DNA from: an uncultured Veillonellaceae bacterium
GTDB lineage: Bacteria > Bacillota > Negativicutes > Veillonellales > Veillonellaceae
Reading direction: 5' to 3'
Assembly (NCBI GenBank): GCA_945867815.1
Contig: CAMBIX010000004.1
Location: 62,001-126,000, forward strand
DNA length: 64,000 bases
In this document: positions 17,522 through 21,926 of the stretch, one piece after another
Layout of the letters: each line of letters opens with the position of its first letter
Position numbering within the stretch: the first letter of the stretch is position 1
Notes under the pieces: model-generated
Database searches by the model: none
What the model was told of the DNA's origin: nothing
Seen by the model: the letters and a program-made list of their open reading frames with translations, nothing else
Position numbers and translations under genes: made by a program

Positions 17522-17597
<76 letters not shown>

Positions 17598-17600
17598 ATA

Positions 17601-17676
17601 TGGTGACCCGAGAGGGAATCGAACCCTCGATACCGCCGTGAAAGGGCGGTGTCTTAAACCGCTTGACCATCGGGCC
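17601..17676 (-). tRNA. tRNA-Glu (anticodon TTC)
   Basis: Acceptor GGCCCGA/TCGGGTC, anticodon loop CTTTCAC in a CCGCC/GGCGG stem, T arm GAGGG-TTCGATT-CCCTC and an encoded CCA. It is three bases upstream of tRNA-Val. Glutamyl-tRNA is also the substrate of HemA, encoded 11 kb away. Confidence 0.97.
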
Positions 17677-17682
17677 ATATTG

Positions 17683-17758
17683 TGGTGGCTCACCCGAGAT
17701 TCGAACTCGGGACACCCTGATTAAAAGTCAGGTGCTCTGCCAACTGAGCTAGTGAACC
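17683..17758 (-). tRNA. tRNA-Lys (anticodon TTT)
   Basis: Acceptor GGTTCAC/GTGAGCC, anticodon loop CTTTTAA in a CCTGA/TCAGG stem, T arm CCGAG-TTCGAAT-CTCGG and an encoded CCA. Confidence 0.97.
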
Positions 17759-17766
17759 ATAAAGAT

Positions 17767-17841
17767 TGGCAGGGGTAGAAGGATTCGAACCTTCGGATGA
17801 CGGAGTCAGAGTCCGTTGCCTTACCGCTTGGCGATACCCCT
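17767..17841 (-). tRNA. tRNA-Gln (anticodon CTG)
   Basis: Acceptor AGGGGTA/TACCCCT, anticodon loop CTCTGAC in an ACGGA/TCCGT stem, T arm GAAGG-TTCGAAT-CCTTC and an encoded CCA with G discriminator. The anticodon is CTG, which reads only CAG; the usual glutamine anticodon TTG must be supplied by another gene. Confidence 0.93.
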
Positions 17842-17880
17842 ATCCCTTATATTCAACAAAGGATATCCTTTGGAGAAAAC

Positions 17881-17956
17881 TGGCTCCCCGAGTAGGACTC
17901 GAACCTACGACCGATCGGTTAACAGCCGATTGCTCTACCAACTGAGCTATCGAGGA
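17881..17956 (-). tRNA. tRNA-Asn (anticodon GTT)
   Basis: Acceptor TCCTCGA/TCGGGGA, anticodon loop CTGTTAA in an ATCGG/CCGAT stem, T arm GTAGG-TTCGAGT-CCTAC and an encoded CCA. Confidence 0.97.
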
Positions 17957-17961
17957 ATAGT

Positions 17962-18036
17962 TGGAGCGGAAAACGAGATTCGAACTCGCGACCCCTGCCT
18001 TGGCAAGGCAGTGCTCTACCGCTGAGCTATTTCCGC
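17962..18036 (-). tRNA. tRNA-Gly (anticodon GCC)
   Basis: Acceptor GCGGAAA/TTTCCGC, anticodon loop TTGCCAA in a CTGCC/GGCAG stem, T arm GCGAG-TTCGAAT-CTCGT (last pair G-U) and an encoded CCA. It is the first gene of the operon, about 48 bases after the promoter -10. Confidence 0.97.
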
Positions 18037-18140: not shown

Positions 18141-18974
18141 TCAAAATAAAAGTAAGACATTAGGAATACTAGCATCCATAGTGCCTGCGCCAAGGCCGCA
18201 TTTATCTACACCTCTAGCTAATTGCTGCTGATAAATGCTAATCGCATCTGGACTAACCAAGCGATATCCATCCTCATCATACGCCACGCTATGTATATAG
18301 GCAGGAAATAAATCCTCTTGATAGTGTCCTAATGTCGATACAAGAGCAGCGCCCGTTGGGGTGACAAATTCCCCACTTGCTGCTGTACGATAGGTAGGTG
18401 CATCCTCTAAAAGCTCCTTAGTCGCCGGCGTCGGTACATCCATCCAGCCATGAGCACAATGCACCTGTCCCTGTCCCACTTGCAAAGGGCTCACCTTAAA
18501 ACCAGTAAAGCCAAAATATTCTAAGCCCAAACAAGTACCGACAATATCAATAAGGCAATCAACAGCCCCCACCTCATGGAAGTGAACCTTATCTATGGTG
18601 CTTTGATGAACCTTAGCTTCCGCCTTGGCCAAAGCATAAAAAACAGCCACAGCTTCTTCCTTAACCCAAGTGGATAAGGAAGAATCACAAATTAAATCCT
18701 TAATGGCTTCAAACCCTCGTCCATGCGTATGCGTGTGAGCATATGTCGGCTTATAATTATGTGCAAAAGAAGTATCTAGTAATCTAACATTAAAATAGGT
18801 GGCTCCTAAACCTAATTTACCTACTTTTTCATAAATAAGCTGATAGCCATCAATAGGCAGTGCCTGCAAGCCTTCCTGCAAATGAACTAGTGGCAGGCCA
18901 TAGTCTAATAGAGCTCCAATAAGCATATTACCACTAACGCCAGCCCCACAAAATAGGTTACAAGTCTTCATCAA
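18141..18974 (-). CDS. LarC1-type protein (nickel-pincer cofactor biosynthesis, DUF111), without the LarC2 part
   Basis: LarC inserts nickel into the pincer cofactor of lactate racemase-type enzymes, using CTP. This 277-residue product matches only the N-terminal half (LarC1): GVSGNMLIGALLDYG (12-26, with Asn where Asp is usual), the His-rich AHTHTHGRG (79-87), HFHEVGAVD (131-139), TPTGAALVS, and the end GAGTMDASIPNVLLLF. Full LarC is about 400 residues, and in Lactiplantibacillus plantarum LarC1 and LarC2 are joined by a programmed frameshift. Here the stop is followed within 29 bases by the tRNA promoter, so there is no room for LarC2. It may be decayed or have another role. Confidence 0.75.
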   Translation of the reverse strand: MMKTCNLFCGAGVSGNMLIGALLDYGLPLVHLQEGLQALPIDGYQLIYEKVGKLGLGATYFNVRLLDTSFAHNYKPTYAHTHTHGRGFEAIKDLICDSSLSTWVKEEAVAVFYALAKAEAKVHQSTIDKVHFHEVGAVDCLIDIVGTCLGLEYFGFTGFKVSPLQVGQGQVHCAHGWMDVPTPATKELLEDAPTYRTAASGEFVTPTGAALVSTLGHYQEDLFPAYIHSVAYDEDGYRLVSPDAISIYQQQLARGVDKCGLGAGTMDASIPNVLLLF

Positions 18975-19167: not shown

Positions 19168-19968
19168 CTATCGACCATCTTGCCGCCCATTGCCTGGCCC
19201 ATCTTCAGCTACGGTAACAGAGGCTTCGCCAAAAGTTTTCATATCATTTAACATGTGTAAAGAAGCATCAATCAAGGATAAACCAAGTGCCGCTCCTAGA
19301 CCTTGTCCCCTATCTATATCATAAAACAAATAGGGCATGAGACCGAGCGTTTTCATTTGCTCTGCCTGTGCCTTTTTCTGTTTAGCCGTTTCTCCTATAG
19401 AAGCAAAGGCATACGCCTTAAGGTCTGGATAGGCTCTTGTTGCTATTTCCACCGCTTGACCGGTTAGTAAGGTATCAAACACGACAGGTAGACCTAAAGC
19501 CACAAGTTCCAATACAAAAGCTGTCATAACGATAAAGGCCTTAGACTCTCTATCTATACGATTAGCGCCTAGCGCCACGATTTGTAGACCCGCTTTCTTA
19601 GCTTTTATAGCCTCTGCTTTTCCTAGTTCATAGGCATCCTCCCAAGACAGTTCCTCTTCTTGTTCTTTTGTAATTAAGCAGGTTTGATACGTAGCTTGTA
19701 GGGCCTGTAAAACGGCCTTTGTTGCTAAGGCTGGTACTTCTTTTTCTCCCATAAACAAAACACCGCCCATAGACAAGTGATTTGGCTTTGGCGTATGCAA
19801 AAGGCCAGCCAAACGAACGGCTATAACTTCCAACTGAGCCAAACTATAAATAGGCTTAGTTAAATTATCCACCCGTTCTCGACAAGCCCTTTCAGCCTTT
19901 TTAGAAGGTTTAGGAATCTGTATTTGTTTAGCCTGCAAATAAGTGACTAACTTTTCTTGATTTATCAT
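19168..19968 (-). CDS. CobT-like subunit without catalytic Glu (ArsB-like candidate)
   Basis: The 266-residue protein has the CobT N-terminal substrate motif RVDNLTKPIYSLAQLEVIA (32-50) and the C-terminal region GLPVVFDTLLTGQAVEIATRAYPD and GQGLGAALGLSLIDASLHMLNDMKTF. Where CobT has the catalytic Glu in LGEGTGA, this protein has Gln (RGQGLGAA). The middle of CobT is shortened. Its start lies 3 bases after the stop of the second CobT homologue, which lacks this N-terminal motif but keeps the Glu. The pair therefore looks like the two halves of a heterodimer, as in ArsAB of Sporomusa ovata, which attaches phenol or p-cresol as cobamide lower ligand. Confidence 0.75.
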   Translation of the reverse strand: MINQEKLVTYLQAKQIQIPKPSKKAERACRERVDNLTKPIYSLAQLEVIAVRLAGLLHTPKPNHLSMGGVLFMGEKEVPALATKAVLQALQATYQTCLITKEQEEELSWEDAYELGKAEAIKAKKAGLQIVALGANRIDRESKAFIVMTAFVLELVALGLPVVFDTLLTGQAVEIATRAYPDLKAYAFASIGETAKQKKAQAEQMKTLGLMPYLFYDIDRGQGLGAALGLSLIDASLHMLNDMKTFGEASVTVAEDGPGNGRQDGR

Positions 19969-19971
19969 CCT

Positions 19972-21003
19972 TTAGCCCTCCTTTTTCTGTAAGGCTTGAT
20001 AGATACGCACAGCCATTTCTAACATACCAGCCTGTATAGCGCCGCCAGAAGCCTCACCTAAGCATAATTTCAAATCCACATAAGCCGTAAGTCCTAAGGT
20101 CTTCAAGGCATCAATATGAGCCTTTTCTGCTGATAAGTGAGAGGCCATCACATAATCCATACAAGCTGGCGCCATCGTATGCGCCACCAAGGCACACGCC
20201 GTTGTGTTAAAACCATCAATAATCGTCATAGCACCTTGCGCTGCCGCCCCTAAAATGACGCCTACCAGGCAGGCAAACTCGTACCCGCCAACGCACTGTA
20301 AAATATGAAAGCCATCTTCTGAACCTATATCCTTATATTTTTCTAAAGCCTGTGCTACAACTTGTGTCTTCACTTTTAAGCGTTCATCTGAAATATTACT
20401 GCCCCGGCCGGTCGCTTCCTTAGCACTTAGCCCAGAAAAAAGAGCCGTCATAACAGCTGCTGCCGTCGTATTCGCAATGCCCATTTCCCCTACTAAAAAG
20501 ACAGTATGGCCCTTCTTGACCTCTTCTTGAGCTATAGTAACCCCTACCATAATCGCTTTTTCAGCTTCTTCTTCTGTCATAGCTGGTTCCCTAAGAAAAT
20601 TACGTGTTCCCTTACGGATTTTGCAATGTCGAAGGCCCGGCACCTGTGACATATCCGCATTAATCCCCATATCAACAACGACCATGGAAGCGCCACAGTA
20701 ATTAGCTAAGGCATTAGCGCCAGCTCCTTTAGGAATTAAATAGTTTGTTGTCATCCCAATAGTCGTACTCTGTGGATAGGCACTAACACCCATTTTAACA
20801 ATACCATGATCAGCGGAAGCAATAACCATACATGGCTTAGGGACTGGTGGATTAACTGCCCCCAAACAGGAGCCATATTGAGCCACCATATCCACTAATT
20901 TGCCATAAGAGGTCTTTTCTGCTCCCCAAGCCGTTTTTATTTCTTCTTCTATTTTATGGTCTCTAGGCTTTATTTGTTGACAAAGTCTATTCAATGCCTG
21001 CAT
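19972..21003 (-). CDS. cobT: Nicotinate-nucleotide:base phosphoribosyltransferase, CobT family (ArsA-like candidate)
   Basis: CobT-type enzymes move phosphoribose from nicotinate mononucleotide to the lower-ligand base of cobamides. The 343 residues show SADHGIVKMGVSAYPQSTT (63-81), KGAGANALANYCGASMVVVDMGI, VGEMGIANTTAAA, a GRGSNISDERLKVK block and a C-terminal CLGEASGGAI with the catalytic Glu. The usual N-terminal LTKPxGSLG motif is missing (SYGKLVDMVAQYGSCLG instead) but is present in the neighbouring protein. It is 32 bases downstream of tyrA and coupled to the second homologue. The lower ligand (benzimidazole or phenolic) cannot be fixed by sequence reading alone. Confidence 0.85.
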   Translation of the reverse strand: MQALNRLCQQIKPRDHKIEEEIKTAWGAEKTSYGKLVDMVAQYGSCLGAVNPPVPKPCMVIASADHGIVKMGVSAYPQSTTIGMTTNYLIPKGAGANALANYCGASMVVVDMGINADMSQVPGLRHCKIRKGTRNFLREPAMTEEEAEKAIMVGVTIAQEEVKKGHTVFLVGEMGIANTTAAAVMTALFSGLSAKEATGRGSNISDERLKVKTQVVAQALEKYKDIGSEDGFHILQCVGGYEFACLVGVILGAAAQGAMTIIDGFNTTACALVAHTMAPACMDYVMASHLSAEKAHIDALKTLGLTAYVDLKLCLGEASGGAIQAGMLEMAVRIYQALQKKEG

Positions 21004-21035: not shown

Positions 21036-21926
21036 TCATTTGGGATTTGCTGTATTATCAATAATTTCTTGAAAATGCTTTCGAATTGTTCGTGCTCTCG
21101 TCAAATAGCTTTCTAAAGCTTGTCCTGACGGGTCTTTTGTTAACATTTGTTTTATTTCTTCTATCTGCCCTGCTAAGGCATCTAAAGCCAATAAGACTTC
21201 CTTCCGATTACCACTTATAATCTCACGCCACATGGAAGGTGTACCACCAGCTACCCGCGTAATATCTCGAAAACCACCTGCCGCTAAGCGAAGACGCAAA
21301 TCACCATACTGGTCATTACCGGCCACTGTTGTAACCATGGCGGCTACTACATGGGGCATATGACTGACTGTTGCTAATAGATGATCATGCTTAGCCATAG
21401 GAACCCACTCAATACGGCCGCCCAGTTTCTGTCCCATCACTTCTAATTCTTTGGCATTCCCTTCATTCCAATGAGGCGATTGTCTATCTTCCAAGATAAT
21501 CCAAGCACAATTCTGAAACAAATCCGCCTTAGCCATAGCATAACCGCCCTTTTCCGAACCGGCCATAGGATGAATGGACACAAAATGTACATCCGCTGGC
21601 AGGCAATCCTCTACAGCTTTTATAACATGCTTTTTAGTGCTGGATACATCCGTCACTAAGGTACCTGGACGAAATAAATCTTTATACTTCACCAAGGTTT
21701 GAGCATTAATATCCGGTGGCATAGCAAAGACAACTATATCGGATTGGCTAATAACCTGCCCTGGTCCGTCTGCTATGTCTTCGATAACCTTATCTTTTAA
21801 GGCCTCCTTGCAGACCTCCGGCAGATGATCATAACCAATAATACGATACGTACCCAACTTAGTCAATCCTTTAGCTAAGGAACCACCTAATAAGCCTAGG
21901 CCAATAATCCCCACAGTCTTTCTCAT
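21036..21926 (-). CDS. tyrA: Prephenate dehydrogenase
   Basis: TyrA oxidatively decarboxylates prephenate to 4-hydroxyphenylpyruvate in tyrosine synthesis. The N-terminal Rossmann motif GIIGLGLLGGSLA (6-18) binds NAD(P), and HPMAGSEKGGYAMAKADLF (about 119-137) is the conserved active-site block of the family; SHMPHVVAAM follows near 208. The 296-residue length shows no fused chorismate mutase or ACT domain. It lies between the MATE gene (38 bases upstream) and the CobT pair (32 bases downstream), so the four genes may share a transcript. Tyrosine is the precursor of p-cresol, which may or may not matter for the cobamide genes. Confidence 0.93.
   Translation of the reverse strand: MRKTVGIIGLGLLGGSLAKGLTKLGTYRIIGYDHLPEVCKEALKDKVIEDIADGPGQVISQSDIVVFAMPPDINAQTLVKYKDLFRPGTLVTDVSSTKKHVIKAVEDCLPADVHFVSIHPMAGSEKGGYAMAKADLFQNCAWIILEDRQSPHWNEGNAKELEVMGQKLGGRIEWVPMAKHDHLLATVSHMPHVVAAMVTTVAGNDQYGDLRLRLAAGGFRDITRVAGGTPSMWREIISGNRKEVLLALDALAGQIEEIKQMLTKDPSGQALESYLTRARTIRKHFQEIIDNTANPK

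Follow-up and report, generated by a model that had tools for sequence, protein, structure and literature searches.

Which enzyme is made by two adjacent CobT homologues, when one of them is far shorter than the other and each lacks residues that the other has kept? The question is raised by a gene pair in the window, a 64,000-nucleotide stretch of DNA from an uncultured Veillonellaceae bacterium, which a sequence-only reading had described as complementary CobT halves lying 3 bp apart and forming an ArsAB-like enzyme. Both open reading frames are indeed intact, both lie on the minus strand and both belong to PF02277: arsA (19972..21003), encoding the putative catalytic subunit of 343 amino acids (E 5e-100), and arsB (19168..19968), encoding a core-eroded 'mini-ArsB' of 266 amino acids. 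The arsA TAA, the single codon of the 3 bp spacer (19969..19971, minus strand) and the arsB ATG share one frame, so that only one stop codon keeps the pair from fusion, and read-through translation yields a chain of 611 amino acids. An AAGGAGG motif located 8 nt 5' of the arsB ATG, within the 3' end of arsA, suggests that the translation of the two genes may be coupled.

By its alignments and tree position, the 343-residue protein is a complete ArsA within the Veillonella ArsA clade. Its best relative in the PDB is the ArsA of Sporomusa ovata (4hdk_A, E 2.8e-94; the best CobT scores E 8.5e-59), with which it is 46-47% identical in the structural match and shares the same catalytic residues: Y76, M84, E173, M174, K212 and E317, corresponding to positions 80, 88, 174, 175, 213 and 317 of Salmonella enterica CobT, are all intact in the alignment. 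The LGEASGG segment with E317 is found and the KP motif is absent, just as had been read from the sequence. The best PDB relative of the 266-residue protein is S. ovata ArsB (4hdk_B, E 8.9e-29), matched in two blocks (25-84 and 151-263). Neither chain reaches the 319.3-bit cut-off of the NCBIfam equivalog TIGR03160 (ArsA 317.4 bits, ArsB 76.3 bits). In a joint tree of 60 ArsA, 60 ArsB and seven CobT rows, the ArsB rows form one group (SH-aLRT 99) and the ArsA rows another (88); the window ArsA falls with Veillonella ArsA in a 100/100 clade, and the window ArsB joins Veillonella ArsB with a support of 96, on a long branch (1.1). The tree separates ArsA and ArsB groups instead of placing each protein with homodimeric CobT, the grouping that the sequence-only reading had named as fatal to its proposal, and together with the best PDB relatives it supports an ArsAB-type identity of the pair. 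The tandem arsA-arsB order is that of the structurally characterised S. ovata ArsAB (PDB 4HDK, 4HDM, 4HDN, 4HDR, 4HDS), and V. parvula ArsAB resembles the window pair still further, in belonging to the same family, in its gene order with tyrA and in having its ArsA in the same 100/100 clade.

The notion of complementary halves holds well beyond this one locus. Across 60 ArsA/ArsB pairs, aligned and numbered on S. enterica CobT, the residues are split reciprocally: all 60 ArsA rows carry E317, E174, K213, M175 and M88, and every one has Tyr or Phe at position 80; of the terminal motifs of ArsA, the N-terminal KP has largely disappeared and the C-terminal one shows no conservation. ArsB keeps K31 and P32 of the N-terminal KP motif and M338 and T340 of the C-terminal M-T motif (each 60/60), with E317 present in 28, K213 in 18 and E174 in 13 of the 60. 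The S. ovata structure paper of Newmister in 2012 is said to have found transferase activity in ArsA only. Both chains of the S. enterica CobT dimer contribute to its base pocket (PMC9561151). This homodimeric enzyme shares its fold, its catalytic Glu and a two-chain base pocket with the window pair; one gene there serves both roles, whereas in the window the roles fall on two chains. Residue split, two-chain pocket and ArsA-confined activity are most simply read together as ArsA catalysing and ArsB capping.

The window ArsB takes this division to an extreme. Its alignment and ancestry identify it as a true ArsB whose core has eroded, so that the earlier description of an ArsB-like second subunit stands as regards lineage, but the protein is no ordinary ArsB and its shortness had been overlooked. 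Compared with Veillonella magna ArsB it carries deletions of 21, 25 and 57 amino acids, and about 103 residues of the phosphoribosyltransferase core are gone; the ends, DNLTKP..SL and LNDMKTFGEA..VAEDGPG, are kept. The motif LTKPIYSLAQLE is present and Gln stands at the position of the Glu (RGQGLGAALG, Q222), both as previously noted. With gaps at S80, Q88 and K213 and Gln at E317, the active site of the window ArsB itself is gone, and neither chain has that of a homodimeric CobT, ArsA being without KP and ArsB without Glu, K213, S80 and Q88. S. ovata ArsB, at 350 amino acids, has the full fold and E317, unlike the window ArsB with roughly 100 core residues fewer and its Gln, and the ends of the two proteins are identical at 20 of 43 and 31 of 44 positions; the V. 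parvula ArsB is likewise full length (367 amino acids), against the eroded core in the window. Within the family, full-length ArsB occurs in 27 of the 27 other genomes searched (open frames of about 360-390 amino acids, in tandem arsA-arsB), which leaves the window's genome as the only one of 28 with a short form.

The erosion is confined to the core. In a relative-rate test of the window ArsB against V. magna ArsB, with Negativicoccus as outgroup, the ends have four unique changes versus seven in V. magna (p 0.55) and the core has 42 versus 12 (p 5e-5); other comparisons agree. The core thus evolves about three to four times faster and the ends at the normal rate, a constraint that is judged against other genera, the window's genus being represented by one genome.

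Sequence comparison alone is enough to demonstrate ArsA/ArsB ancestry, the reciprocal residue split, core-confined erosion and, as set out below, repeated erosion and fusion in Negativicutes. The mechanism that we propose on this basis, to which we give a probability of about 0.8, is that ArsA is the catalyst, ArsB a non-catalytic cap with a dispensable core, and the product of the pair a phenolic alpha-O-ribotide. ArsA would hold the whole catalytic apparatus, comprising the NaMN site, the general base E317 and the base contacts Y76, M84 and M174, while the N- and C-terminal segments of ArsB would complete the base pocket of ArsA across the dimer interface. We infer the capping role of ArsB from the evidence above; if its ends suffice as a cap, its own core comes under relaxed selection, and some 103 residues could be lost in the window lineage. 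The product would be the alpha-O-ribotide of p-cresol or phenol, which would be built into a phenolyl cobamide serving, for example, methylmalonyl-CoA mutase. Such pairs would exemplify how an obligate homodimer with shared sites turns into catalyst and cap, followed by repeated decay of the redundant core, and a division of this kind gives simple, testable predictions on which ArsB residues matter.

Structure models are in keeping with this arrangement. AlphaFold2 predicts that the window ArsA and ArsB form a pseudo-heterodimer, in a model of the read-through chain that joins them artificially (pLDDT 85.9, pTM 0.88); a natural, strongly eroded fusion from Selenomonas massiliensis is modelled with pLDDT 91.6 and pTM 0.93. 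The alignment with separate ArsB rows set these on the ArsA half and was left out of the modelling. The ArsA halves of the window and S. massiliensis models match p-cresol-bound ArsA (4hdm_A) with Z scores of 51.2 and 51.4, respectively. The alignment of single-chain archaeal CobTs runs, in either model, from ArsA as far as the MKTF segment of ArsB; these ranges, known by their end points alone, are suggestive of a lid supplied in trans.

Shortened ArsB proteins are by no means peculiar to the window. The distance between the N- and C-terminal motifs of ArsB is 293-321 amino acids in full-length forms, 247-266 in intermediate and 180-242 in eroded ones; it measures 207 in the window and 183-242 in fused forms from Selenomonadaceae. 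Changes were counted on an ArsA tree, which uses no ArsB data. Core erosion of ArsB amounts to eight changes on this tree (7-9 in bootstrap trees), at least five of which are forced by supported branches, and fusion of ArsA with ArsB to about four. On the same tree the erosion of the window ArsB is an event of its own, nested among full-length Veillonella; elsewhere the rooting is not firm and some of the changes could run the opposite way, the length of CobT making loss the natural direction. The fused ArsA-miniArsB proteins of Anaerovibrio, Selenomonas, Megamonas, Schwartzia and Propionispira have their ArsB cut to parts similar to those kept in the window, but the fusions of Selenomonadaceae are single polypeptides of about 590-680 amino acids and their erosion is, by the ArsA tree, independent of that in the window.

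The distribution was surveyed in 380 Negativicutes genomes with an ArsB profile weighted towards eroded forms; its 148 listed best matches are a biased list, so that the class counts are not frequencies. Fusion is combined with erosion in 74 of these 148, with middle length in three and with full length in one; separate ArsB is eroded in 33 cases and full in 37. At least 107 are thus eroded and at least 78 fused into one open reading frame. Eroded and fused ArsB makes up 65 of the 65 listed for Selenomonadaceae (family f14, so assigned from the contigs that it shares with named loci), and eroded, separate ArsB 26 of the 26 listed for another family, f18. The f18 loci examined have the ArsA-like gene separated from the mini-ArsB gene by a cobS-like one (L083:5500-6240, L087:3889-4746, L092:3844-4638), and the mini-ArsB of this family has a different C-terminal end, YKEMETFEEAGVHVEVKE.

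A published genome survey found arsAB in 27 species under the rule of two tandem genes of 300-800 amino acids (PMC6461909), which is an annotation filter and neither a biological definition nor a lineage criterion. The window pair, with its ArsB of 266 amino acids, falls outside it, and given the numbers of eroded and fused forms listed above, such a rule would miss them. No description of a fused or shortened ArsB was found in the literature searched; within that literature Veillonella ArsAB is known, and what is new is the erosion of the ArsB core, the fact that it arose repeatedly, the fusions and the survey gap. In the bovine rumen 20-34% of the cobamides are reported to be phenolyl cobamides, in human feces 16%, and the list of known producers comprises S. 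ovata and V. parvula alone (PMC8123684). It is a tentative extension, and one that we regard as somewhat doubtful, that ArsB can shrink to a non-catalytic cap whose ends by themselves form the phenol pocket of ArsA, and that mini- and fused ArsAB turn many Selenomonadaceae of gut and rumen, along with related Negativicutes, into phenolyl cobamide producers; if true, the carriers would account for some of the phenolyl cobamides found in both habitats.

Could the window genes be something simpler? Two ordinary homodimeric CobTs that are adjacent by chance would both belong to PF02277, as these do, and the ArsA score comes within two bits or so of the cobT cut-off (317.4 versus 319.3), but the joint tree, on which this explanation was rejected, keeps ArsA and ArsB in groups of their own, and neither chain has a full set of active-site parts, which together make it exceedingly improbable. 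A shrunken arsB might alternatively be a decaying pseudogene, with ArsA working alone or also being lost and a separate CobT doing the work, and the deletions, the fast core and long branch of the window ArsB as well as a second, divergent CobT in the genome are what decay would predict. Against this, the arsB reading frame is intact and preceded by a Shine-Dalgarno sequence, its ends evolve no faster than those of full-length relatives, and the same erosion pattern, fusions included, recurs in old and diverse lineages. Normal ends combined with a fast core are not the way in which a pseudogene decays, and we hold this explanation to be quite improbable.

A more serious rival to the catalyst-and-cap reading concerns the ligand, namely that the split architecture is independent of ligand class and that the pair acts in vivo on benzimidazoles or purines instead of phenolics. 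DMB is likewise accepted as a substrate by S. ovata ArsAB (PMC8123684), and in f18 and several Selenomonadaceae genomes no base-activating enzyme other than such a pair or fusion was found: the four Selenomonadaceae and eight f18 genomes examined contain no further PF02277 protein, so there need be no bond between the architecture and phenolic ligands. Tyr, Met and Met stand at CobT positions 80, 88 and 175 of the window ArsA, and a CobT S80Y/Q88M/L175M variant has been crystallised with p-cresol (4kqj), but the same triad occurs in some ordinary CobTs, e.g. that of Thermus, and is no proof of phenolic use. V. parvula, of the same family and with a clade-mate ArsA, has arsAB together with a separate CobT, and its production of p-cresolyl cobamide is confirmed (PMC8123684, PMC9600662); by analogy with this species and S. 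ovata we infer that the window pair uses phenol or p-cresol. A separate, divergent CobT in the window's genome (L213:8035-9075) could serve benzimidazoles, and HydG is there as a possible source of p-cresol, all of which renders a purely benzimidazole- or purine-activating pair unlikely. That separate CobT belongs to a KP-less divergent branch common to the CobTs of Veillonella and an Anaerovibrio-like genome.

The genome of the window also encodes CobS and methylmalonyl-CoA mutase. HydG releases p-cresol from tyrosine (PMC6212873) and would be the supplier of p-cresol here; as a general partner of ArsAB it was rejected, only 17 of 28 sampled carriers scoring over the cut-off, which makes it a possible source in this genome and no rule. 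ThiH, for which this genome has no match above the cut-off, was discarded as the source here. A gene for a HydE-like radical SAM protein (L213:3736-4860) is situated some 3 kb from the separate cobT, with HydG on a different contig.

The neighbouring prephenate dehydrogenase gene tyrA (21036..21926, minus strand; PF02153/PF20463) lies 32 bp upstream of arsA and had been suggested as possibly more than a chance neighbour. In a comparison of gene order over 121 loci, it adjoins arsA in most Veillonellaceae and lies about 3 kb off in one genus, a gene-order trait of this family; at the arsAB loci of Sporomusa, Negativicoccus, Selenomonadaceae and others no tyrA was detected out to about 5 kb, and the S. 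ovata locus differs from the window in this respect. With the linkage seen in Veillonellaceae only, a functional tie to phenolic ligands is unproven, and it is conceivable given the use of tyrosine by HydG.

A cobalamin riboswitch for the operon was sought with Rfam across the whole window, and such control of arsAB was rejected, six tRNAs being the sole matches; they form a cluster at 17525-18036 on the minus strand. The downstream neighbour of arsB, a larC-like gene (18141..18974, minus strand; LarC1 part; TIGR00299, PF01969), matches just positions 5-216 of 375 in PF01969, and the tRNAs that follow within about 105 bp leave no room for a LarC2 part. Veillonella loci also contain a short larC, and linkage of larC to arsB recurs in several Veillonella and Negativicoccus-like loci among the 121. 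In one genome, G106, larC has next to it a remnant of the arsB 3' end (an open reading frame of 66 amino acids, L071:3474-3674), with the intact arsAB some 5 kb distant, a layout that would fit a relocation of arsAB out of the neighbourhood of larC.
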